From IMG/VR virus record IMGVR_UViG_3300047300_000955, positions 1 through 37,834 of that record: a DNA stretch of 37,834 bases. One strand, given 5' to 3'. This DNA comes from a virus. Made by a program: the position numbers and the translations under genes. Shown piece after piece: positions 13,259-25,961 of this stretch (positions within the stretch are counted from its first letter, which is position 1; each line of letters starts with the position of its first letter). Under the pieces are notes generated by a model. That model was not told the origin of the DNA. It was given only the letters and a program-made list of their open reading frames with translations, and did no database searches.

Positions 13259-13480
13259 ATGAAGCAAATCATTCTCCGAGTTTTCGCCGTTTTTGGCTAT
13301 TCCAGCCTTGCCATGATTGGCGGTGCTTCAATGCTGGGTGTGTCCGTTATCAAGGGTGCGGCACTGGCGGGAATCGTCGCAGCAAGTCAGGTCATTGAGA
13401 AGTTGGCTCGTGCCTACGCAGATGATGGCGTGGTCTCCAAGGCTGAATTGGCGGAAATCTTCGGTGCTTCGAAGGGTTAG
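13259..13480 (+). CDS. Holin-like membrane protein, 73 residues
   Basis: Residues 5-50 contain two closely spaced hydrophobic segments (VFAVFGYSSLAMIGGASMLG and VIKGAALAGIVAASQVIEKL) followed by a charged tail. Size, membrane topology and position in front of the endolysin fit a class II-type holin. No biochemical motif distinguishes it from other small phage membrane proteins. Confidence 0.55.
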   Translation: MKQIILRVFAVFGYSSLAMIGGASMLGVSVIKGAALAGIVAASQVIEKLARAYADDGVVSKAELAEIFGASKG

Positions 13481-14636
13481 CCGCCTCCTTCTGCTGCTTG
13501 TCCCGCTGATTTCACTCATTCCTACGGGTCTCCTACACGCAGAAAATTTCATCATTTCGGCTCCAACAGACATTTGGTTTGATTACGCAGAGCCAACACA
13601 TTTTGACGCAACGACCTACATGGTTGCTGGACACAACTCAGACCCTCAACTCTGGCTGTACAACGAGGCGGGCGCTCTCATCACCAGTAACGATGACTCC
13701 AACGGTCTGCAATCTCACATTGCAATAGACCTTGAAGCGGGTAGATACCGCCTTCGAGCGGGCGTGTGTTGTGGGCAACCAGATGTGTGGTCCTCACGGA
13801 GCAACTGGAATCTTGACTATGAACTTGCTTTCAATGGCGTTGGGTCCATGCAAACTACGACGGTTGTGACAACCACCACATCGACCACGGTGCCTCCGAC
13901 AACCACGACTTTGGCACCTACGACCACAACTACAACCTTGCCGCCGACTACGACGACTCTGGCTCCGACAACGACTTCAACCATTCTTCCTTCGACCACG
14001 GTACGGGTCGTTCAAACAACAACCTCAACGCTTTTTGTACCCGTCGTCTCCTCAACCACGCTCGCCCCATCGACCACAACAACACAGTTGCCGTCCACAA
14101 CACAGTTGCCAACAACAACCACGCAACCTGCTGCATCCACCACAACCACTGAGAAAACAACGACAACCTCCAGCACCCTTCTTGTTTTGCCGACTACCAC
14201 AGAACCTACAACAACGACGACCGTGCCCAATGCGATGCACCAAGACCCCGAGGTGACTGCCGCTGTGAGCGAACTGCTGGACTTGAAGCCTTCTGAGGTC
14301 AAAGTATCTCAACTTCAAAACATTCTGACTCCAGAGGTAGCCAGTCAATTGACCTCAGAACAGGTCAATGCGATTGTTGATTTGATTAGCGCAACGGCTG
14401 ACGGGTTAAGTGATTCTGAATTGCTGGTCCTCGCCGAAACACTCACATCGGCACCACAAAGCGTCAAAGACACTTTTGAAGCAAAAATCAATGTGTTTGG
14501 TGGCAAATTCGATACTTATGTTCCCGTTGGCTCAACAATTCCAGTCGGTCAGCGTCGAGTATTGAACGCTCTTGTAGCAACAGTCATGGCAGTTCCCGCC
14601 GCTTCCAGCGGCTCATCACGCAAAAGGAAACCATAA
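13464..14636 (+). CDS. Secreted protein with PPC-like domain and long Thr/Pro linker
   Basis: A protein of 390 residues starting at GTG 13464 with a signal peptide (LRRVSRLLLLLVPLISLIP...). Residues 30-125 look like a pre-peptidase C-type beta domain (PQLWLYNEAGALITSNDDS, then HIAIDLEAGRYRLRAG). Residues about 130-255 are almost only Thr, Pro, Ser and Val. Residues 260-370 form helices ending with an FGGKFDTYVPVGSTIPVGQR segment, then a basic tail RKRKP. The layout resembles surface proteins of Acidimicrobiia more than any phage lysis protein I know. It lies among holin and endolysin genes, so it could help lysis, modify the envelope or block superinfection. Confidence 0.7.
   Translation: MLRRVSRLLLLLVPLISLIPTGLLHAENFIISAPTDIWFDYAEPTHFDATTYMVAGHNSDPQLWLYNEAGALITSNDDSNGLQSHIAIDLEAGRYRLRAGVCCGQPDVWSSRSNWNLDYELAFNGVGSMQTTTVVTTTTSTTVPPTTTTLAPTTTTTTLPPTTTTLAPTTTSTILPSTTVRVVQTTTSTLFVPVVSSTTLAPSTTTTQLPSTTQLPTTTTQPAASTTTTEKTTTTSSTLLVLPTTTEPTTTTTVPNAMHQDPEVTAAVSELLDLKPSEVKVSQLQNILTPEVASQLTSEQVNAIVDLISATADGLSDSELLVLAETLTSAPQSVKDTFEAKINVFGGKFDTYVPVGSTIPVGQRRVLNALVATVMAVPAASSGSSRKRKP
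13855..14220 (+). repeat. ACC/ACA/ACG-rich tract coding Thr linker
   Basis: Degenerate short repeats encode strings of Thr with Pro, Val and Leu. Codons vary, so the tract is kept at protein level. Long antisense frames here are artefacts. Confidence 0.7.
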
Positions 14637-15727: not shown

Positions 15728-16017
15728 CCGTGAAAAAACCAACCAATGACCTTGTGTCACGGTTGGGAACACCGTCGTTAAGCCCTTATGCGAATCGTTG
15801 TTCTGTTGGGTTGATGATGGAAACTCTCACCGATGAAGAGCGGCAAGCCGTCGAGAGCGCTTTGGAAAAAGTGACCGCAGGACTGAAAACGAAGTCCTCT
15901 GTTCAAACTGGATACACCGCACGATGGTTTTCAAAGGTGCTCGAAGAAGCAGGGCATCATGTTTCGGACCGAATGGTTCGCCGTCACTGTCATGGAGAAT
16001 GTTCTTGTGAGTCTTGA
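15724..16017 (+). CDS. Putative HTH protein ahead of metallophosphoesterase
   Basis: A protein of 97 residues with a GTG start overlapping the previous stop. An acidic helix (LTDEERQAVESALEKV) precedes a likely helix-turn-helix (YTARWFSKVLEEAGHHVSDR) and a Cys-rich end HCHGECSC. Its role is unknown; DNA binding is an inference. Confidence 0.55.
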   Translation: MTVKKPTNDLVSRLGTPSLSPYANRCSVGLMMETLTDEERQAVESALEKVTAGLKTKSSVQTGYTARWFSKVLEEAGHHVSDRMVRRHCHGECSCES

Positions 16018-17158
16018 AAAAAAACTGACCGAAGGACCACCACCTTCCATCAAAGAGAAAATGGGCAAACTCGCTGACTTGCTCGAGCGCTCGGGAATCA
16101 ATCCAGACGAAATTGGCAAAGTCGAAAGAATCAATGTCTGGCAAGGTTTCCTCAAAGACGAAAACGGCGAAGCACAACTTGTTGACATGGCGGGCATCGT
16201 GCTTTCGCCAGAATGGGCAGAAGGTCCGCAGTATCCAGTCGTACAACCCGCTGCACCAACGCTGGTTCGCCCCCTAAAGTCCTCAAAAACAAAAACCGAT
16301 ACAAGGGTCACAGTTATCCTTCCCGACCCTCAAATCGGCTACAGGCGTGTAGGGGAAGAAATGATTCCAATGCACGACGAGCGGGCAATGTCGATTGCAT
16401 TGCAGATTGTGCGGGATATGAAGCCCGATGCGATTGTCAACCTTGGTGACTTTATTGACCTTCCAGAGTGGTCATCCAAGTTCTTGGTCCTTCCTGAGTT
16501 CGTGTTGACCACCCAACCTGCAATTGACAGGGCACATCGATTCTTGGCGGAGCAAAAAGCGGTCGTAAGCGAGGACACAGAAATTGTCCTAATCGCTGGC
16601 AACCACGATGACCGTCTCGGAAAGGCGATTGCTCGTAACGCTATGGCTGCCATGCGATTAAAGCGAGCAGATGTGCCAAACGAGTTCCCTGTATTGTCGA
16701 TTCCTTTCCTTCTGAGGCTTGACGACCTTGGAGTCAAATACATATCTGGCTATCCAGCGGGTCGACACAAAATCACAAACGGCAACGACATCATCACGCC
16801 GCTTTATGCGATTCACGGCGAGAAACTTGATGTTGCCAAAGTTGCCACTTCTGAGCGTCAATCGTTTGTACAGGGTCACATTCACCGATTTGCAATGCAC
16901 TCCCAAACCTATGAAATTGACGGCACACCAAAGTTCGTGATGGCGTTCTCAAGCGGCTGCTTGTGTCGAATCGACGGTGCTGTACCGTCGACCAAATCGG
17001 CGACGGACGACCACGGAACACCGCTTACACGCTGGGAATCATGGCAACAAGGGGTTGCGGTAGTCACTGAAAACCCCGACGGCTATTGGACCGCAGAAAT
17101 GGTCCCCATCTACAACGGGACCAGTGTGTTCCGTGGGAAAACCTACAAAGCAGAGTGA
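16007..17158 (+). CDS. Calcineurin-like metallophosphoesterase
   Basis: A protein of 383 residues. GTG 16007 has GGAG at a good distance; ATG 15992 is the alternative. The N-terminal 95 residues are helical and unassigned. The catalytic core follows: DPQIG, LGDFIDLPEW, AGNHDDR, then a His in YAIHGE and GHIHRF. These are the metal ligands of the calcineurin-like fold. The first motif is D-P-Q rather than D-x-H, a known variation. Possible substrates include nucleic acid or cyclic nucleotides; the location next to replication genes suggests DNA metabolism but does not prove it. Confidence 0.85.
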   Translation: MSLEKKLTEGPPPSIKEKMGKLADLLERSGINPDEIGKVERINVWQGFLKDENGEAQLVDMAGIVLSPEWAEGPQYPVVQPAAPTLVRPLKSSKTKTDTRVTVILPDPQIGYRRVGEEMIPMHDERAMSIALQIVRDMKPDAIVNLGDFIDLPEWSSKFLVLPEFVLTTQPAIDRAHRFLAEQKAVVSEDTEIVLIAGNHDDRLGKAIARNAMAAMRLKRADVPNEFPVLSIPFLLRLDDLGVKYISGYPAGRHKITNGNDIITPLYAIHGEKLDVAKVATSERQSFVQGHIHRFAMHSQTYEIDGTPKFVMAFSSGCLCRIDGAVPSTKSATDDHGTPLTRWESWQQGVAVVTENPDGYWTAEMVPIYNGTSVFRGKTYKAE

Positions 17159-17159
17159 C

Positions 17160-17765
17160 ATGACAACGATTCTGGCGTATCAAGGAAACGACTTTGCGGT
17201 TGTTGGCACTGACAGCAGAATCTCAAGTTTCGACGACGGCGGAATGGTCTATCAGATAACGACGCTGGGTTCTGGGGCTGCCAAAGTCGCCGAAAATGGC
17301 GAGTACCTCATTGGGGTTGCTGGCGATGTGCGGGCAATCAACATTGTTCATCACGCTTTTTCACCGCCAGTCGCTTCACGGACTGTCAAGGATAAGAAAC
17401 TCGACATTTTTATGACAAAGTCATTTGTGCCATCGTTGCGCTCGTGCTTTGAAGAACAGGGTTATGCGACACCTGAAAAGGAAGGTCAGCAGCATCGAGC
17501 CGAGCAAGCATCGTCGGTTCTTGTTGCAATTCACGGAACGGTGTATGTCATTGAATCTGATTATGGGTGGACCTCGGACCAAAGCGGTATGTATGCGATT
17601 GGCACGGGCAGCGCTTACGCCCTTGGTGCGCTTGAGGCTCTCGTTGGTCGTCGTGTGTTATCGGTCGAGCAAGCGAAATCGTTTGTCACAAAAGCGCTTG
17701 GTATTGCAGCAAAGTTTGACCCCTTCACGGGGGGACCATTCAAAACATTCCTCCAAGAGCGTTGA
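17160..17765 (+). CDS. Proteasome beta/HslV-like Ntn hydrolase
   Basis: A protein of 201 residues beginning MTTILAYQGNDFAVVGTDSR. Removal of Met would expose Thr1, and the Asp in GTDSR falls at position 17, as in proteasome beta subunits. A Lys in GAAKVAENGEYLIGVAGD is a candidate for the catalytic Lys33 equivalent (displaced by an insertion). The rest keeps the alternating strands and helices of the fold. Phage-coded stand-alone members could form small peptidase rings or process a phage protein. The start ATG follows the stop of the phosphoesterase gene closely. Confidence 0.75.
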   Translation: MTTILAYQGNDFAVVGTDSRISSFDDGGMVYQITTLGSGAAKVAENGEYLIGVAGDVRAINIVHHAFSPPVASRTVKDKKLDIFMTKSFVPSLRSCFEEQGYATPEKEGQQHRAEQASSVLVAIHGTVYVIESDYGWTSDQSGMYAIGTGSAYALGALEALVGRRVLSVEQAKSFVTKALGIAAKFDPFTGGPFKTFLQER

Positions 17766-18816: not shown

Positions 18817-19665
18817 ATGTCAGTCGAAGTTATTTCGTGGGTGCTCAACGAAGCACCAGTCCAATCGCCTGTTTCCAAGTTTGTACTTGTTGCCTTGGCA
18901 AATCATGCCCATCCTGATGGAACTGCAGCGTTCCCATCGGTGAAAACCATTTGCCGATACACCTGTTTGTCGGAGCGTTCGGTCCGTCAGCACCTTGACA
19001 ATCTTGAGGCTCAGGGAATCATCAAACGATGCGACCAGCGGATTGTGGCTGCCTATATTGACCGTTCTGACCGTCGTCCTGTGGGGTACGACATCGTCAT
19101 GAGCGGGGTGCAGGAGATGCAGGTCGAAGGTGAACGGGGTGCAGGAGATTCACCTAACGGGGTGCAGGAGATTCCAGAACGGGGTGCAGGAGGTGCACCC
19201 AAACCATCCAATAAACCGTCAATTAAACCGTCCGAGGTTGCGGCGCTCGTTCAAGAGTTCAAAAAGGTGATAGCGGATACGACACCAGAGGGGGTAGCAA
19301 GCCCAGCGGTCTCTACACAGTGGCACAAGGCGCTACAAGCGCTGTTAACCGTTCATGGTGCCTCCAGTACCCAAATCATCTCTGTCATGCGTTCAGCGGC
19401 TTCTGACGCTTTCTGGCGCAAGAACATCAGAACACCAATGGCGCTCGAGAAGCATTGGGAGCGACTCAACATTGAAATCGGGCAGGCAAAGCCTGTTGTG
19501 TCAACATCACGGCGGGACATTGGACTCGATGATGGAAAGACGATGGTCCTGAATTTTGTGCGGTTGAAGAAAGACGATTCTGAAATTGCCGAGTACATCG
19601 CTGGTCGACCAGCATCACATCACGATGCGTTGCACCAGTGGTGGAAAGAAAACCGCAGCGCATGA
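18817..19665 (+). CDS. Replication initiator (replisome organiser), winged helix
   Basis: A protein of 282 residues. Residues 15-75 form a winged helix-turn-helix (VLVALANHAHPDGTAAFPSV, then LSERSVRQHLDNLEAQGIIK), as in phage initiators. Residues 95-135 are a low-complexity linker encoded by the iterons described separately. The C-terminal half is helical and could recruit helicase. This copies the layout of lambda O, where the origin lies inside the initiator gene. It follows GAGAGGAAG and is followed by an HNH gene overlapping as ATGA. Confidence 0.75.
   Translation: MSVEVISWVLNEAPVQSPVSKFVLVALANHAHPDGTAAFPSVKTICRYTCLSERSVRQHLDNLEAQGIIKRCDQRIVAAYIDRSDRRPVGYDIVMSGVQEMQVEGERGAGDSPNGVQEIPERGAGGAPKPSNKPSIKPSEVAALVQEFKKVIADTTPEGVASPAVSTQWHKALQALLTVHGASSTQIISVMRSAASDAFWRKNIRTPMALEKHWERLNIEIGQAKPVVSTSRRDIGLDDGKTMVLNFVRLKKDDSEIAEYIAGRPASHHDALHQWWKENRSA
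19104..19192 (+). repeat. Four iterons CGGGGTGCAGGAG: candidate replication origin
   Basis: Perfect copies lie at 19104-19116, 19135-19147, 19158-19170 and 19180-19192, with spacings of 31, 23 and 22. They are read in alternating frames (GVQE, RGAG, GVQE, RGAG), so the conservation is in DNA, not protein. Confidence 0.8.
19201..19236 (+). repeat. Three 12-base A+T-rich direct repeats (possible unwinding element)
   Basis: AAACC(A/G)TC units begin at 19201, 19213 and 19225, directly after the iterons. They also encode repeating K-P-S, so protein-level repetition is possible. Confidence 0.55.
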
Positions 19666-20312: not shown

Positions 20313-20714
20313 ATGAAGCCGTCAGTCTTTCTTCAAGAGTCAGACGGCAACGCAATGATTGTGTTTCGAGTCGCAGAACGACCTTGGACCACAAACGCAG
20401 AACGAAAAGGCAACCGTTGGGTCAGGGCAGAAAAGGTGTCCGAGTGTCGAGGGACATTCGGGTGGCTTGCCAAGGCTCAGCGGTTGCCTCTTTTAACCAA
20501 TGCCCGTGTCACTGTTGAGTTGCTGCAAAAAGGCAGACTGCAAGACACAGCAGCCTGTAACCCGTATGTCAAAGCAGCGATTGACGGATTGGTTGACGGG
20601 GGAATTTTGCTGGATGACACCCCAGACCATTTGGTGTCAATCACTTTTTGCGCCCCAACGAGGGCAAAGTTTGATGAAATAACAATCACAATTGAAGGGG
20701 AAATACATGAGTGA
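20313..20714 (+). CDS. RusA-like Holliday junction resolvase
   Basis: A protein of 133 residues (GTG 20307 is an alternative start overlapping the previous stop). The C-terminal half has the RusA-like catalytic layout: DTAACNPYVKAAIDGLVDG followed by GILLDD and a final strand pair. RusA-type enzymes resolve four-way DNA junctions during replication or before packaging. The first half (NAERKGNRWVRAEK) is basic. One canonical position (usually D-x-D/N-N) is modified, so activity should be checked. Confidence 0.7.
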   Translation: MKPSVFLQESDGNAMIVFRVAERPWTTNAERKGNRWVRAEKVSECRGTFGWLAKAQRLPLLTNARVTVELLQKGRLQDTAACNPYVKAAIDGLVDGGILLDDTPDHLVSITFCAPTRAKFDEITITIEGEIHE

Positions 20715-21189
20715 TGAAACAGTTCTGCCGTACAACGGCACCGAGGGCTTTATCAGCGGCTCCGATACCTCACGAGAACGAGCCGAGCGCAATGTCAAAG
20801 ACGGTACGGTCACAAAACGACAGCGTGATGTGCTCGATGCGTTGCACCAACGACCAGACGGCATGACATGGAAAGACCTCAACCTCTTGCTTGGTTTGCA
20901 CCACGGGCAAGTATCAGGGACACTGTCAGTGCTTCACAAAGCGGGAAAAATTGTTGCCCTCAAGACAAAACGAGACGGTTGCCACCCTTATCTGGCAATG
21001 CGATTTATTGACAACTACCACCCAAGCCAAACAATCATGACCCCGTCAAAAACTTTTTCGGGGATTAAGCGGGCAGCGCTCGAAAAAGTGGTGGAAGCAG
21101 CCCGTGCCGTGGACAAAGAACACACCCTTGAGACCGAGGCATACCTCCGTCAAGCCATTTGGGACCTTGATGCGATTCTGAATACTTGA
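20707..21189 (+). CDS. Winged-helix DNA-binding protein
   Basis: A protein of 160 residues starting at ATG behind AAGGGG, overlapping the resolvase gene by 8 bases. Residues 40-100 (KRQRDVLDALHQRPDGMTWK, then HHGQVSGTLSVLHKAGKIVA) form a MarR-like winged helix with a wing containing GCHPYL. The C-terminal helix may dimerise. A likely phage transcription or replication regulator. Confidence 0.6.
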   Translation: MSDETVLPYNGTEGFISGSDTSRERAERNVKDGTVTKRQRDVLDALHQRPDGMTWKDLNLLLGLHHGQVSGTLSVLHKAGKIVALKTKRDGCHPYLAMRFIDNYHPSQTIMTPSKTFSGIKRAALEKVVEAARAVDKEHTLETEAYLRQAIWDLDAILNT

Positions 21190-21209
21190 CCGTGCTATCG
21201 TCTGAACCC

Positions 21210-21452
21210 ATGAACGAGTTCGGACAAATACGAGTTGAGAACGAAGAAGTCGAGGACAGCGACCTTGACAAAGTCAAAATGCTCACATCGATGATGAGGG
21301 AGCACCAAAATTCCGTGATTCGTTTGGGTGCACAGCGTCGGTCGGTAATTCGTCGCCTGCGTAAGAACCGCACTCCGTATCGTGTGATTGCCGACGCTTG
21401 TGGCGTGACGGACCAAGCCTTGTTCGCCGACTTGCGTAAGCATCCAGAATGA
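21210..21452 (+). CDS. Small HTH protein, probably leaderless
   Basis: A protein of 80 residues. An acidic start is followed by a basic helix (IRLGAQRRSVIRRLRKNR) and a helix-turn-helix (YRVIADACGVTDQALFADL). An extended -10 (TGCTATCGT, 21193-21201) lies eight bases before ATG, and no ribosome site is visible. It resembles sigma-region-4-like or resolvase-type HTH proteins. Confidence 0.6.
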   Translation: MNEFGQIRVENEEVEDSDLDKVKMLTSMMREHQNSVIRLGAQRRSVIRRLRKNRTPYRVIADACGVTDQALFADLRKHPE

Positions 21453-21453
21453 T

Positions 21454-21482
21454 TTGACACCACAGTCCACATGTGGTAATTT
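21454..21482 (+). promoter_or_regulatory. Sigma70-like promoter before 21522
   Basis: TTGACA, 17-base spacer ending ATGTGG, TAATTT. The predicted start near 21489 is the first base of the leader hairpin. Confidence 0.8.
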
Positions 21483-21488
21483 GTTTCT

Positions 21489-21521
21489 GGAGGGAAAAGG
21501 ACCTTCCAAGAAAGGGGAAAG
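21489..21521 (+). promoter_or_regulatory. 5' leader hairpin plus ribosome site (copy 1)
   Basis: Six-pair stem 21489-21494 with 21502-21507 (one G-T pair), loop AAAAGGA, then AAGAAAGGGGAAAG immediately before ATG. Copies occur at 22211, 32038 and 35307. Confidence 0.7.
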
Positions 21522-21761
21522 ATGAAGGAACGACAAGAGTTTCTTTATCGGATGCAGCGAGTCCATGCGGCGACAGCGTTCATCTTTGATTATTGCGGTG
21601 TTCGAGTTGAGAACATCAAGGAACTGACCATGGAAGATTGGCAGAAGGTTCTGGATTGCCGTCACGGTGATGCCAAATTGGAAGAACTCTTTGACCGTCT
21701 CACAGCCGCTCGAGCAGACCTAGCAACTGCTTACCTCGCTCTCAAGAAGGAAACGGTATGA
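21522..21761 (+). CDS. Small helical protein at head of modification cluster
   Basis: Not recognised. It has 79 residues, nearly all helical, with FIFDYCGVRVENIKEL in the middle. Its stop overlaps the start of the HExxH gene. It is the first gene after a strong promoter and leader. Confidence 0.6.
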   Translation: MKERQEFLYRMQRVHAATAFIFDYCGVRVENIKELTMEDWQKVLDCRHGDAKLEELFDRLTAARADLATAYLALKKETV

Positions 21762-22174
21762 AGTACCACACTCGATTTAAGAACTTTCATCCCAAAACCA
21801 TCAGCGCTGTCAAGTATCTGATGAGGGAATGGCAATCTCGAGACCAATGGATTCTCATGGAGACCTGCGCTTGGCGACTATGCGAGTTGTACGGCATGCC
21901 GAGAGTAGATGTGCACAAAGACTGCACATCGGGTGATGGTTTTTACCGCCCGTCGACCCGCACCATTCACATGGTTAAGCCTTCAATCATCACCTTTCTT
22001 CACGAGTTCCGCCATGCGATGCAGCACCTGATTCACAAGCAGGTGGACCCAGACATCGAGGTCGATGCTCGGGCGTGGAGCCTGTCGCTCTACTTCGTGG
22101 TTGCCCCACGAACGCTCAAGAGATTGGTTCGAGAAGGAAAAGTGTTCCACACGACAATAAATGATTTCCAATGA
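21758..22174 (+). CDS. HExxH zinc metalloprotease-like protein
   Basis: A protein of 138 residues with FLHEFRHAMQH, the zinc-binding and catalytic HExxH of gluzincin/ImmA-like folds, and a downstream acidic residue in DPDIEVDARAWS as a possible third ligand. An upstream strand (RTIHMVKPS) fits the edge strand that positions substrate. It could be a small phage peptidase that cuts a repressor or a tagged protein. It is coupled to the preceding gene (ATGA) and followed by the amidoligase. Confidence 0.7.
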   Translation: MKYHTRFKNFHPKTISAVKYLMREWQSRDQWILMETCAWRLCELYGMPRVDVHKDCTSGDGFYRPSTRTIHMVKPSIITFLHEFRHAMQHLIHKQVDPDIEVDARAWSLSLYFVVAPRTLKRLVREGKVFHTTINDFQ

Positions 22175-22175
22175 T

Positions 22176-22204
22176 TTGCGTTTAGCAATTACATGTGGTA
22201 ATTT
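22176..22204 (+). promoter_or_regulatory. Sigma70-like promoter before amidoligase
   Basis: TTGCGT, 17-base spacer ending ACATGTGG, TAATTT. The spacer end and -10 are nearly identical to the promoter at 21454. Confidence 0.75.
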
Positions 22205-22210
22205 TTAGGT

Positions 22211-22242
22211 GGAGGGAAAGGGACCTCCAAGAAAGGGGAAGG
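22211..22242 (+). promoter_or_regulatory. 5' leader hairpin plus ribosome site (copy 2)
   Basis: GGAGG (22211-22215) pairs with CCTCC (22224-22228) across loop GAAAGGGA; then AAGAAAGGGGAAGG precedes ATG. The hairpin is at the predicted 5' end of the transcript. Confidence 0.7.
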
Positions 22243-23247
22243 ATGCCACGACAGACATGGGACTTCCAAACCGCTCATCAAATGCGGTTGGCAGGAAGCA
22301 CATGGCGAGAAATCGCTGACCACTTCGGTGTCGCTGGTGAATCAACGATTCGAGAAGGTCTCCGCCGCTACCTCGGCGAGACGACTCGAGACACCACTCG
22401 CAGCAACGCCGCTCACCAAGCACTAGCAGCCCGCTGGCAGCAACTCACTCATCGCACCTTCGGTTGTGAGATTGAGTTCCACACGGCAATTCGAGGCGAA
22501 GTCGCCGACGCTCTTGAGCAAGTGCTCGGCTACCACATCCACTTAGTCGGCTACCACGGCAACCAATGCGTAGTCTGCGGAAACGCAGTACGGGGATACA
22601 GCCAGTGGAAACTTGAGACAGACTCAAGCGCAACAAGCGGGATGAACAACGCTGGTGTCCACCGCCACAACCAAGGTGGCGAACTGGTCTCGCCAGTGCT
22701 GAGCGGTCCTCAAGGTCTCGAGGAAATCAAGAAAGTCATGAAGGCTCTCCGCTCGGTCGGTGCCAAAGTCGACTACCGCCACGGGATGCACATCCACATC
22801 GGAGTTGCAGACATCATCTCGGACCCCACCAAGGTACGGACACTCTTCGAGAATCTCCAGATGGCACAGACAACGCTCTACCAACTGGTTGCACCCAGCC
22901 GCCGCACCAACCACTACTGCAATCCAGTATCGAGCATGAAGTTCAGCCGCTGGGCACACGGTGACTTCAGCACCTGCAACCACACAGACGGAGTGAATGT
23001 TTCAAACATCAACCGAATCGGAACCATCGAGATGCGGATGCACCAAGGTTCACTCAACGGCAAGAAGGCAACAGAGTGGGTCAACTTCCTAGTCGCTCTC
23101 TTCGATGCCTCAGCCGAGGGAGTGGTCATAACACACAGCGACCATGTCCTTGCCACACTCAAGACGGCACGGAAACTCACCAACGCCAACTACGAGTGGC
23201 TGGTCAACCGCAAGAATCAACTCAACCCCACGGCAATCGCCGCCTAA
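22243..23247 (+). CDS. HTH-amidoligase fusion protein
   Basis: A protein of 334 residues. Residues 10-45 are a helix-turn-helix (MRLAGSTWREIADHFGVAGE). From about residue 68 the sequence follows the ATP-dependent amidoligase (carboxylate-amine ligase, glutamine synthetase-like fold) family: FGCEIEF, WKLETDSSATS, GGELVSPVLSG, YRHGMHIHIG and IGTIEMRMHQGSLNG. These form the metal and ATP site. Such enzymes join an amine or ammonia to a carboxylate. The next gene codes a glutamine amidotransferase that can supply ammonia, and the pairing is known from phage and bacterial gene clusters. The substrate is unknown; peptide tagging or wall modification are options. Confidence 0.85.
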   Translation: MPRQTWDFQTAHQMRLAGSTWREIADHFGVAGESTIREGLRRYLGETTRDTTRSNAAHQALAARWQQLTHRTFGCEIEFHTAIRGEVADALEQVLGYHIHLVGYHGNQCVVCGNAVRGYSQWKLETDSSATSGMNNAGVHRHNQGGELVSPVLSGPQGLEEIKKVMKALRSVGAKVDYRHGMHIHIGVADIISDPTKVRTLFENLQMAQTTLYQLVAPSRRTNHYCNPVSSMKFSRWAHGDFSTCNHTDGVNVSNINRIGTIEMRMHQGSLNGKKATEWVNFLVALFDASAEGVVITHSDHVLATLKTARKLTNANYEWLVNRKNQLNPTAIAA

Positions 23248-23262
23248 CGAAAGGACCACAAC

Positions 23263-23991
23263 ATGTGCGGAATCGCAGGATTCAGTATCTCCGACAAGGA
23301 CCATCGCAAAATCAATTGCCGACTGCTGGCATGCAAACTTGCTCTCCAGATTCAGCGTCGAGGCACCGATGCCACAGGCATCGCATGGTCAGCAACCGAC
23401 GAAGAGCACGGACTCGGTGTCTACTACATGAAGTCAGCAGTACCTGCTCACGAATTCATTGACAGCATGGACCAAGTTGCTCGACACACCCGAACGGCAA
23501 TCATCCACACCCGCTACGCCACAAAAGGCAGCCCCGAGAACAACGACAACAACCATCCAATTCTGGTAGGCAACACGGTCGGTATCCACAACGGCGGCAT
23601 CCGCAACGATGACCAAATCATCGAGGAAGTCGGCACAGGACGAACAGCACAAGTCGACACGGAAGCAATCTTCCGACTCATCGATGCCAGCGAAAACCCT
23701 GTCCGTGAACTCCACCGACTGCAGGGAACAGCAGCAATTGCATGGCTCAACACAGACAGCCCCAACGAAATGCACCTAGCCCGAGTCATCGGTAGCCCAC
23801 TCTGGGTCGGCACAACAGAAGGTGGCTCACTCATCTTTGCCTCCATCGAGGGGATGCTCCGTACGGCAGCAATGCAAGCGGATGTCAAGTTGACACAAGT
23901 CAAGGAAATTGCCGAGGGAATGTACTTCAAGGTCATCAACGGCAAGGTTGTTGACTTCGACCTCATCAAAGAAGGATTGTCAGTGGCATGA
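23263..23991 (+). CDS. Class II glutamine amidotransferase
   Basis: A protein of 242 residues beginning MCGIAGF, with Cys2 as the N-terminal nucleophile after Met removal. Other conserved blocks are RRGTDATGIAW, AIIHTRYATKGSPENNDNNHP and GIHNGGIRND, as in the glutaminase domains of PurF, GlmS and AsnB. No synthetase domain is fused, so ammonia is probably passed to the upstream amidoligase. It follows 15 bases after the amidoligase stop behind AAAGGACC. Codon use and overlap with the next gene show one operon. Confidence 0.9.
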   Translation: MCGIAGFSISDKDHRKINCRLLACKLALQIQRRGTDATGIAWSATDEEHGLGVYYMKSAVPAHEFIDSMDQVARHTRTAIIHTRYATKGSPENNDNNHPILVGNTVGIHNGGIRNDDQIIEEVGTGRTAQVDTEAIFRLIDASENPVRELHRLQGTAAIAWLNTDSPNEMHLARVIGSPLWVGTTEGGSLIFASIEGMLRTAAMQADVKLTQVKEIAEGMYFKVINGKVVDFDLIKEGLSVA

Positions 23992-24302
23992 GCCTCAAAA
24001 TCACATTTTCAAAAGACCACAGTTACACCGTCGAAAACGGTACAGAGTTTCTGGAACTGTACGCAGCACTAAACGCCCACACACTTGAACCACCATTGGT
24101 CAATCGAGTAGGTGCACGAAGTTTGCTCGCCCTACGAGTAATGTTCAGCGGCAAAGGTCTCGTCAACATGGAACTTGATGACGATGCGTTCGTAGCCGAA
24201 GTTGCCAATCGTGGCATTTATCAACTTGAGGAAATCGATGGAGTGGAGAAGCCGAGCGAATTGCCGTTCGATGGGTCCAAGCCTGTTCTTCGGTCCAATT
24301 GA
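23988..24302 (+). CDS. Small partner of the amidotransferase cluster
   Basis: Not recognised. It has 104 residues, an ATG start overlapping the amidotransferase stop, and mixed alpha/beta content (SL KITFSKDHSYTVENG, ALRVMFSGKG). It has no zinc or catalytic motif. It may be a substrate or carrier, but this is guesswork based on gene order. Its end overlaps the WhiB gene by 65 bases. Confidence 0.6.
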   Translation: MSLKITFSKDHSYTVENGTEFLELYAALNAHTLEPPLVNRVGARSLLALRVMFSGKGLVNMELDDDAFVAEVANRGIYQLEEIDGVEKPSELPFDGSKPVLRSN

Positions 24303-24696
24303 GGAAACCCACGCTGAGCGCATCTACCGAGAAGCACAAGCCAAAAATGTTTGCAGCCAATGCGATGTGGCTGGTGACTGCCTCGTCGAAGGTCAAGCCG
24401 AAGAGGGCATTTGGGGCGGTCTAACGGACGCAGAGCGCCGCAGGCAGACCCAACGCTCCAGATACTCGCCACCACGAATTACACCCGTTGTGATGCGAAC
24501 AGAAGGGCATGAGGACGATTCCGATACCGAACCGTGGACACCTCTTGAGTCTTTTGAAAATGTCATGCTTTTTCGTCGAGACTCAAAGAAATCGTGGCAC
24601 GGCTCAGAATTCATTCTTGTAAAAAACGGGATTGTTGTGACCATCACCACAGACTTGACCGAAGCGTACGCCCGTTACCACACTCTGCTAGGGTGA
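24238..24696 (+). CDS. whiB: WhiB-family iron-sulfur regulator with C-terminal extension
   Basis: A protein of 152 residues. The four cluster ligands are Cys9, Cys39, Cys42 and Cys48 in the C...CxxCx5C pattern, followed by the turn GIWGG (57-61) and LTDAERRRQ, the classical WhiB signature. ATG 24238 behind GAGGA is needed to include Cys9 and gives a 65-base overlap with the previous gene. Residues 80-152 are an added domain (beta/alpha, ending in DLTEAYARYHTLLG) that ordinary WhiB proteins lack. Phage WhiB proteins can reprogram sigma-factor-dependent transcription or block host WhiB. The family is essentially restricted to actinobacteria and their phages. Confidence 0.9.
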   Translation: MEWRSRANCRSMGPSLFFGPIEETHAERIYREAQAKNVCSQCDVAGDCLVEGQAEEGIWGGLTDAERRRQTQRSRYSPPRITPVVMRTEGHEDDSDTEPWTPLESFENVMLFRRDSKKSWHGSEFILVKNGIVVTITTDLTEAYARYHTLLG

Positions 24697-24712
24697 CACC
24701 CGTCTGCAGACA

Positions 24713-24776
24713 GTCAGCATCCCCTTCCCCCAGCGCAGTTGTTTCCCTCTTTTTCTTTCTGCGCTGGGGGGCTGAC
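24713..24776 (+). other. Long two-part RNA hairpin between whiB and ParB-like genes
   Basis: A perfect 12-base stem (CCCCCAGCGCAG 24727-24738 with 24759-24770) is extended by GTCAGC 24713-24718 with GCTGAC 24771-24776, leaving an 8-base bulge on the 5' side. The 20-base loop is pyrimidine-rich. AGTTGT in the loop can pair instead with ACAACT downstream. No U-run follows, so it is not a plain intrinsic terminator. Confidence 0.65.
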
Positions 24777-24792
24777 AACTTGAAAGGACCCG

Positions 24793-25380
24793 ATGCCTCC
24801 TCGCTCAAAGCCCATCTCAAAGGACCCAACAGCCAAGGTTGAGCAAACGCCTCTGGAGCAATTGCTTCCACATCCGATGAATCCCCGTCGAGGAAACATT
24901 GACAAGATTGTGGAGTCCATCAAGGTCAACGGCTGGTTCGGTGTAATCGTCGCTCAAAAATCCACCAAGTACATTCTTGCGGGCAATCACCGCTGGCAAG
25001 CAGCCCGACAGTTGGGGATTGAGTCTGTCCCCGTCATGTGGCTCGACTGCTCCAATGCCGAGGGCAAGAAAATTCTTCTGGCTGACAACAAAATGAACGA
25101 CATGGCTGGTTATGCGAATGACACGCTGCAGGAACTTTTACGCTCGGTTCTTGCCGATGACGACCTTCGGGGAACGGGATTTGACGCTACGGACATCGAA
25201 GCACTGGTAGACGAAGTCACGGACGAACCTGACGACAAGCGCAAGCGCAACCTCGAGCCATTCCACGACACATTTTTTCTGGTCCGCTGCCCCATTACCG
25301 AGCAAGGTCGAGTGATGCAACTGCTGACTAATGCGATGCAGGAAATCGAAGGCGTGGAGATTGCCTCGGCAACAAACTGA
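24793..25380 (+). CDS. ParB-like nuclease-domain protein
   Basis: A protein of 195 residues. Residues 20-100 have the ParB/Srx-type fold motifs: LEQLLPHPMNPRRGNIDKIV, ILAGNHRWQAARQLG and ADNKMNDMA. Unlike partition ParB it lacks the central DNA-binding HTH and is followed by an acidic linker and a C-terminal alpha/beta segment. In phages such proteins commonly sit beside methyltransferases, as here. ATG follows GAAAGGACCCG. Confidence 0.8.
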   Translation: MPPRSKPISKDPTAKVEQTPLEQLLPHPMNPRRGNIDKIVESIKVNGWFGVIVAQKSTKYILAGNHRWQAARQLGIESVPVMWLDCSNAEGKKILLADNKMNDMAGYANDTLQELLRSVLADDDLRGTGFDATDIEALVDEVTDEPDDKRKRNLEPFHDTFFLVRCPITEQGRVMQLLTNAMQEIEGVEIASATN

Positions 25381-25961
25381 TGAGCCGCAGGATTTACACC
25401 GAGAACAGTCACCTGTCCTCCAAAGCACGAATCCGTGCCGATTACATGGAGTCAACAGGCAAAACTGAGTGGTATGTCCTCGATGCGTTTGCAGGGGAAG
25501 GCAAAGTGTGGGACCGAGTACGGGAACTTTTACCCGAACATAAAATCACCTATCTTGGCATCGACAAAAAGAAATACACCCGCCCCGATGTCATCATGGG
25601 GGAAAACCAAAAAATCATGCGGGGTCTGGAACTCGACAAGTTCGACTTGATTGACCTTGACGCTTTCGGCTTCCCATGGGAACAACTTGAAATCTGCGCC
25701 AAACTCGCACCCAATGTCCCCGTCGCTTCGACCGCCATCTCGGTCACGCTCGGACCAACACCGTACGGTGTGCTCAAAGCCGCTGGTATCCCAAAAGAGT
25801 GGACCTCGGGGAAAGAGATACCCCACGCTCTCTTCAATCGCTGGCGCTGGGGCTTCTGGGAGCACTTCTGCTGGTCTCTGGGGTACAGGACCACAGACTA
25901 CGAATTGCACAACGACAAGCCGTCTGTGAAGCGCTACGAAATTCTTACTCGGGATAGTTGA
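25380..25961 (+). CDS. SAM-dependent methyltransferase-like protein
   Basis: A protein of 193 residues overlapping the ParB-like stop by one base. Motif I is VLDAFAGEGKVW, motif II GIDKKKY, and the catalytic-type motif is DLIDLDAFGFPWEQL, which resembles the DxDPFG of Trm1-like RNA methyltransferases more than the DPPY of DNA amino-methyltransferases. The target could be phage DNA, tRNA or another substrate. The pairing with a ParB-like gene suggests the two act together. Confidence 0.7.
   Translation: MSRRIYTENSHLSSKARIRADYMESTGKTEWYVLDAFAGEGKVWDRVRELLPEHKITYLGIDKKKYTRPDVIMGENQKIMRGLELDKFDLIDLDAFGFPWEQLEICAKLAPNVPVASTAISVTLGPTPYGVLKAAGIPKEWTSGKEIPHALFNRWRWGFWEHFCWSLGYRTTDYELHNDKPSVKRYEILTRDS

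Follow-up and report, generated by a model that had tools for sequence, protein, structure and literature searches.

What is the function of the five adjacent genes at positions 21522–24302 of the virus record IMGVR_UViG_3300047300_000955? The window, i.e. the whole stretch of 37,834 bases that was analysed, carries tail, terminase and WhiB genes and probably derives from a tailed phage, the host of which, judging from WhiB, would be an actinobacterium. The five open reading frames (ORFs) lie on the plus strand where the first-pass annotation had located them and encode a protein of 79 amino acids (aa), a putative HExxH metallopeptidase (P), an amidoligase (AL) with an N-terminal helix-turn-helix (HTH), a stand-alone class II glutamine amidotransferase (GAT) and a small protein of 104 aa (Sm). 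The chances are about even that the cassette specifies a glutamine-dependent complex which amidates carboxylates (or ligates peptides) and has a dedicated hydrolase. Phage cassettes of this kind are known, and this variant adds a new metallopeptidase partner as well as a small-partner family, apparently not joined up before. As far as predictions from sequence reach, the gene set, its intact catalytic residues and the recurrent association of its members are established.

The AL gene (22243–23247) encodes an Amidoligase_2 protein (PF12224; E 4.4e-28, 99.2 bits against a Pfam cut-off of 22) with its ligase domain at residues ~66–334. Its start is most likely the ATG at 22243, located behind a purine-rich site, the GTG at 22195 being disfavoured. 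Twenty columns were invariant in 34 AL sequences, including E76, E78, E147, H183, H185, R220, N252, E263 and R265, which presumably correspond to the metal and substrate ligands of glutamine synthetase (GS). The predicted structure (mean pLDDT 89.7) clearly assigns the ligase domain to the GS fold. Foldseek yielded 72 matches at E ≤0.001, with GMAS/GS at about 1e-5 (5e-6 for gamma-glutamylmethylamide synthetase), and VIA Z values to YbdK-like, GS and Dop structures were 11.4–12.8, e.g. 12.8 for 1tt4 (rmsd 4.3, 219 aligned) and 11.9 for the depupylase Dop, 5lrt (rmsd 4.3, 214 aligned). The HTH was weakly matched in Pfam (HTH_28, E 0.098) and modelled as three helices at residues 8–43, with block-mean pLDDT values of about 83–95 over residues 11–40 and lower values at the ends. 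The fusion to an HTH, previously put forward as undescribed, is upheld by the model but is not peculiar to this phage, as amidoligases of Arthrobacter phages align with AL across the same N-terminal region. The N-terminal modules vary, being an HTH in the clade of the window and in Arthrobacter phages, zinc-ribbon-like in loci L053 and L164 and absent from L050, L051 and L064; they look like targeting or regulatory add-ons.

The GAT gene (23263–23991) encodes 242 aa that match GATase_6 (PF13522; E 1.8e-17, 64 bits against a cut-off of 27), with GATase_7 also above its Pfam cut-off, and phrog_14519 in PHROGs (E 1.7e-46). Cys2 directly follows the initiator methionine, and the conserved Asn-Gly and Asp of class II amidotransferases are present; 45 columns, including C2, N110, G111 and D132, were invariant in 12 sequences. 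C2 is presumably the nucleophile, and N110-G111 and D132 are taken to be class II active-site residues. The nearest solved sequence is the glutaminase domain of GlmS. A fused synthase domain of the GlmS, PurF or AsnB type is absent from the 242 aa, and NCBIfam models of these types matched only the N-terminal part, far below their equivalog cut-offs. Since class II glutaminases that are not fused to a synthase depend on one as a partner, and AL was the only candidate seen beside GAT, AL is taken to be this partner.

The P gene (21758–22174) encodes 138 aa with the motif HEFRH. The residues H82-E83-x2-H86 and E101-x-D103-A104-R105 were invariant in 25 sequences and in a set of seven, and H82, E83, H86, E101 and D103 are among the 16 columns invariant in the former. 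Family searches gave no close label. P of the window had only a sub-threshold Pfam match (DUF6782, E 0.0058), and NCBIfam gave no family above threshold for it. At E 0.1 the 25 members matched six Pfam families, among them DUF6782 (17 members, best 1.9e-4) and DUF3920 (18 members, best 3.6e-4), both below the cut-off for P of the window itself. Comparison with solved structures by sequence gave one chance match. No match was obtained among plasmids with P of one relative as query. Membership in a bacterial housekeeping family was rejected, as the single genome-contig match, L123 from a metagenome-assembled genome (MAG), has the order P-AL-GAT and is probably phage. A second P-like ORF lacking the HExxH motif, perhaps a non-catalytic paralogue, was observed directly after P in L250 (L250:7265–7681).

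The model of P (mean pLDDT 90.2) bears on a different role. Its best Foldseek matches were PprI and a Mycobacterium tuberculosis regulator, which we take to be IrrE-like. In VIA, CapP came first (Z 6.2, rmsd 4.6, 123 aligned), followed by minigluzincins (5.0–5.7), a DNA-protein-crosslink protease (5.4), and ArdC, IrrE and the M. tuberculosis regulator (each 5.0). An HExxH motif with a following Glu (H82, E83, H86 and E101 in P) is shared with ImmA/IrrE/CapP metallopeptidases, which the small zincin-like model may resemble. P might accordingly be a regulatory protease of this kind that cuts the HTH-ligase linker of AL, or a free HTH repressor, and so switches on the enzyme or operon without part in the chemistry; the low-confidence stretch joining the two AL domains (block means 54–75 at residues 41–70) would suit such a cut. 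This is nevertheless unlikely. P accompanies AL proteins that have no HTH (L050, L051 and L064) or a zinc-ribbon-like N-terminus (L053 and L164), whereas Arthrobacter phages have an HTH-bearing AL without P. No Pfam match to ImmA/IrrE (DUF955) was found in the 25 members at E 0.1, and Z values to CapP, IrrE/PprI and the M. tuberculosis regulator ranged from 3.6 to 6.2. Cleavage of the linker as a general rule was rejected, P being kept where AL lacks an HTH. As every VIA Z value is below 8, the modelled P is called gluzincin-like, with no closer label.

The genes were then considered across phages. The first-pass annotation had named a peptidase, an HTH-amidoligase and an amidotransferase, and these identities proved right. 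The catalytic residues, the loss of which would have spoken against the cluster, are kept in the alignments of 25 P, 34 AL and 12 GAT sequences, and the order P-AL-GAT likewise holds in all P-bearing IMG/VR relatives whose contigs span enough of the locus. Together, the kept order and the invariant residues indicate more than a chance association at the locus. Three profile scans of IMG/VR gave 43 contigs with P (38, then 4, then 1). AL was present in the same record in 40 of these, as well as in the MAG contig and in Geobacillus phage GR1; of the remaining three, L024 and L042 end at or just after P, and the third is L250. In INPHARED, three different P queries found P in one of 50,697 phage records, namely GR1, which is also among the 39 records with AL by tblastn. 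The probability that a lone P record is AL-positive by chance is about 0.08%, a lower bound, because AL phages in INPHARED number more than 39 (LUZ24-like phages are missing from the tblastn list), but one that stays small.

Neighbours of AL were counted in 109 clusters. These were formed at 80% identity from 234 AL proteins with a minimum length of 220 aa, which merged overlapping loci (one contig under several ids). The intervals were −5000 to +6000 nt for P and −3000 to +3500 nt for other genes. Sampling is biased towards relatives of the window, about half of the loci having come from its own P and AL queries, and from one search feeding the sample the best 80 matches were kept. A class II GAT was near AL in 55 of the 109 clusters, gamma-glutamyl cyclotransferase (GGCT) accompanied AL in 35 and peptidase C26 in 4. 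On a FastTree phylogeny of the 109 clusters, P required 4 changes, GGCT 15 and GAT 6. GR1 and L165, which this tree did not score as carriers of P, add one more lineage, and the phage lineages with P number at least three.

P could also be a hitch-hiker, i.e. an unrelated accessory gene that common descent within a single phage group keeps near AL; one clade with shared synteny accounts for 19 of the 21 P clusters. An H..CxxC insertion in AL is present in 19 of these 21 clusters; outside them L061 has it and the 87 remaining clusters lack it, and the carriers belong mostly to one clade. P recurs with AL, however, where the gene order differs. L053 and L164 have AL, Sm, GGACT (PF06094), peptidase C26 and P together, L165 has P next to a double-GGACT gene and AL at a distance of 21 kb, and in GR1 P and AL are 11 kb apart, so that synteny fails to explain their co-occurrence. 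Hitch-hiking is thus rather improbable, and the metallopeptidase, noted earlier as an addition to the pair, is a real associate of AL that recurs in unrelated phages.

The 55 clusters with a class II GAT included 19 with P, 11 with GGCT and none with both (hypergeometric 0.005). Strict exclusivity of P and GGCT, suggested by a first count in which 0 of 55 clusters had both, was rejected when a better GGCT profile revealed both in L053 and L164. The bonds on which GGCT and peptidase C26 act are gamma-glutamyl amides, and the repeated presence of these enzymes beside AL hints that AL products may be amides of a side-chain carboxylate.

The Sm gene (23988–24302) encodes a member of a small-partner family sited just after AL or AL-GAT. 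Pfam gave no match for the protein of the window and scattered matches only for other members, NCBIfam had no family above threshold for it, and comparison with solved structures by sequence gave 11 weak matches (best E 0.092). The family was recognised by profile. Profiles from the branch of the window and from another phage branch, which has a similar-sized gene after GAT, matched each other weakly. The two branches were joined via intermediates (hhalign probability 93.8%), and a model built without the branch of the window found that branch at E 4e-6 to 0.05 (9e-4 for Sm of the window). The profile, grown by adding members each round, had 111 matches at E<0.05 among 21,645 ORFs, and 110 of these begin between −400 and +1500 nt from the end of AL; the start of the remaining one, in L194, runs too far upstream, while its end is at the same place as that of its relative in L197. 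Some matches lay outside the training set, e.g. eighteen proteins starting 7–45 nt after AL in loci without a detected GAT. At E<0.01, Sm was found in 52 of the 109 AL clusters and in 23 of the 55 with a class II GAT. Sm thus goes with AL rather than with GAT. Near AL in another group (L107:4651–4863, and the equivalent place in L100, L110 and L115), a short conserved CEVDGY...CPxCNQ protein is encoded just upstream, with an overlap of 4 nt between its ORF and the start of AL in L107. The group yielded no Sm match, and the protein is possibly another small partner.

Modification of the 104-residue protein, and a cycle of tagging and untagging, had been among the initial ideas. In the corresponding scheme AL would attach Sm, or some other small protein, to a target through a carboxylate, and P, GGCT or C26 would undo the attachment, as in the Pup-PafA-Dop system. 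AL shares the GS-fold ligase domain of PafA/Dop, and its resemblance to Dop, the steady position of Sm next to AL and the recurring amide-bond hydrolases are consistent with such conjugation. Unlike the pupylation system, the window has a separate GAT, which would supply ammonia and not a protein amine, and an Sm without a Pup-like C-terminus. The Sm family is degenerate: across 27 sequences not one column is invariant, R50 and F68 coming closest at 90% or more. It ends in LRSN in the window and in RSV, RSE or an earlier stop at GMAK in relatives, the proteins of L003 and L004 lack the C-terminal tail, and the conserved C-terminal Glu or Gln acceptor of a Pup-like protein is absent. A role for Sm as a Pup-like tag was rejected on the missing tail and the lack of an invariant column. 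The same evidence weakens the idea that Sm is modified, and the conjugation cycle as a whole is very unlikely. What endures of the tagging and untagging proposal is the company of amide-bond hydrolases that AL keeps. The constant place of Sm beside AL fits a subunit better than a modification target.

In the proposed complex, GAT would release ammonia from glutamine at Cys2, and AL with ATP would convert a carboxylate on a peptide or protein to an acyl phosphate, to which an amine would then be joined; ammonia may pass from GAT to the acyl phosphate made by AL. Sm might be a small structural subunit of AL, comparable to PurS and GatC, which are small subunits in other amidotransferases. P may act on the same product or on a member of the complex, taking the hydrolytic role that GGCT or C26 would have in relatives. 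As candidate substrates, peptides that are precursors of the host envelope rank about level with proteins of the host or phage. In a rival reading, surface peptides, such as those of peptidoglycan precursors, would be amidated or capped by the cassette, which would block adsorption of competing phages, and P would trim cell-wall peptides; in its favour, actinobacteria amidate peptidoglycan carboxylates with glutamine-dependent enzymes. A cell-wall change, likewise among the initial ideas, is as a defence against superinfection also the published guess for phages with an amidoligase and a GATase, phiEco32-type clusters included, as given in the available text of two papers that both cite Iyer 2009 (PMC10580990, PMC11318856). 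Surface capping is possible, though on the unlikely side. A fuller version of the amidating complex is rather unlikely: AL, the glutaminase and Sm would be a previously unrecognised three-part amidating machine, and P, as a new gluzincin family, would alternate with or supplement GGCT and C26, together giving a modular system by which, during infection, amide bonds would be written on a cellular peptide or protein and erased again.

Several observations weigh against the amidating complex with its hydrolase. The structural matches of P are weak (best Foldseek E 0.03; best VIA Z 6.2, under 8). L250 (38.9 kb) has P, and AL was not found in it; by eye, the genes around its P resemble those around P of GR1, and it may be a fragment of a GR1-like phage. 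P is missing from L061, which does have AL-GAT-Sm. The adjacency in the main actinophage clade could be due to synteny alone, WhiB and ParB neighbours also being kept, and the split between P and GGCT in clusters with a class II GAT is one event, P having been gained once in the clade. Sm was detected in 8 of 21 P clusters, leaving much of the P clade without a match, and was likewise not found in GR1, L165 or L250, where the search had no positive control. The available text of the literature examined contains no biochemistry for any member of the cassette.

That amidoligase-amidotransferase pairs are known from phages, as stated at the outset, was borne out by published AL-GAT, GGCT-AL and GGCT-AL-GAT neighbours in the accessible parts of the sources (PMC3890496, PMC11318856, PMC5513430, PMC10580990, PMC3517423, PMC7824862). 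In the same parts, phage amidoligases are given neither a metallopeptidase nor a constant small protein as a partner; a further source, PMC5705681, does not bear on this enzyme. One of the closest arrangements is that of Arthrobacter phages Kovu (gp96–98) and Salgado (97–99), where AL with an HTH-like N-terminus is followed by GAT on the same strand (see also PMC5513430). Kovu also has WhiB nearby, as does the window, whereas GGCT occupies the place of P in these GGCT-AL-GAT clusters and P was not found in those loci. The LUZ24-like/phiEco32-type cluster (PMC3890496; PhiCHU) shares Amidoligase_2 and a class II GATase with the window but, as far as the available description goes, has COOH-NH2 ligase-type, ATP-grasp and GGCT genes, and its GATase is longer; P and a recognised Sm are lacking from it. 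No ATP-grasp protein or second COOH-NH2 ligase was found beside AL-GAT of the window in the 10 genes of 20692–25961 (Pfam, PHROGs), and elsewhere 19 chosen ORFs were scanned with PHROGs. GR1 shares AL and P with the window and has GGCT beside AL; it differs in the distance between P and AL and in that GAT was not found by profile in the AL locus. The role of phage amidoligase-GATase pairs, which have been annotated for years, has only been guessed. Because Sm and P recur, following AL through unrelated phages, a vague annotation becomes a defined four-protein set for co-expression and assay. If P does oppose AL, the outcome would be a reversible modification made by a phage.

The layout of the locus was also analysed. 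The five genes had been described as adjacent and coupled. Their location and ATGA overlaps at two junctions (79-aa gene/P and GAT/Sm) agree with this, and AL and GAT are separated by 15 nt. P and AL, however, are separated by 68 nt that hold a second copy of a leader seen upstream of the 79-aa gene. The first copy (21469–21521, plus strand) comprises a hairpin (predicted −9.4 kcal/mol) and a purine-rich ribosome-binding site; the second (22191–22242, plus strand) is 88% identical and has a predicted hairpin of −10.5 kcal/mol. Because this copy sits between P and AL, the genes probably form two units, the 79-aa gene with P and AL-GAT-Sm, rather than a single coupled run. Hairpin-like sequences were seen by eye at the position of the second copy in L004, L012 and L015. 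The 79-aa protein (21522–21761) had no Pfam match and was recognised in some close relatives only, other small ORFs occupying its place elsewhere; it is regarded as accessory and variable, and its candidacy as a core member was rejected for lack of conservation across relatives.

The leader, a GGAGGG...CCTCC hairpin with a AGAAAGGGG site, precedes start codons four times in the window, the further copies being at 32018–32073 and 35284–35338. At the leader site in relatives the hairpin-like sequence is kept while the letters of the stem differ, which hints at paired changes. A proteasome/HslV-like Ntn-hydrolase gene (17124–17765; PF00227, E 3.9e-9; phrog_1040, E 1e-24) adjoins a metallophosphoesterase gene (15959–17158). 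Two genes contain internal repeats. The gene at 18817–19665 has four imperfect copies of a GAACGGGGTGCAGGAGAT unit (19101–19202), and that at 13317–14636 has four imperfect copies of a 47-nt unit (13857–14101), two of the spacings being 48 nt. An orphan protein of 193 aa with a methyltransferase-like DAFAGEG stretch (25380–25961) stays beside a ParB-like gene in relatives and had one distant match in the 50,697 phage records, in Dulem virus 36.

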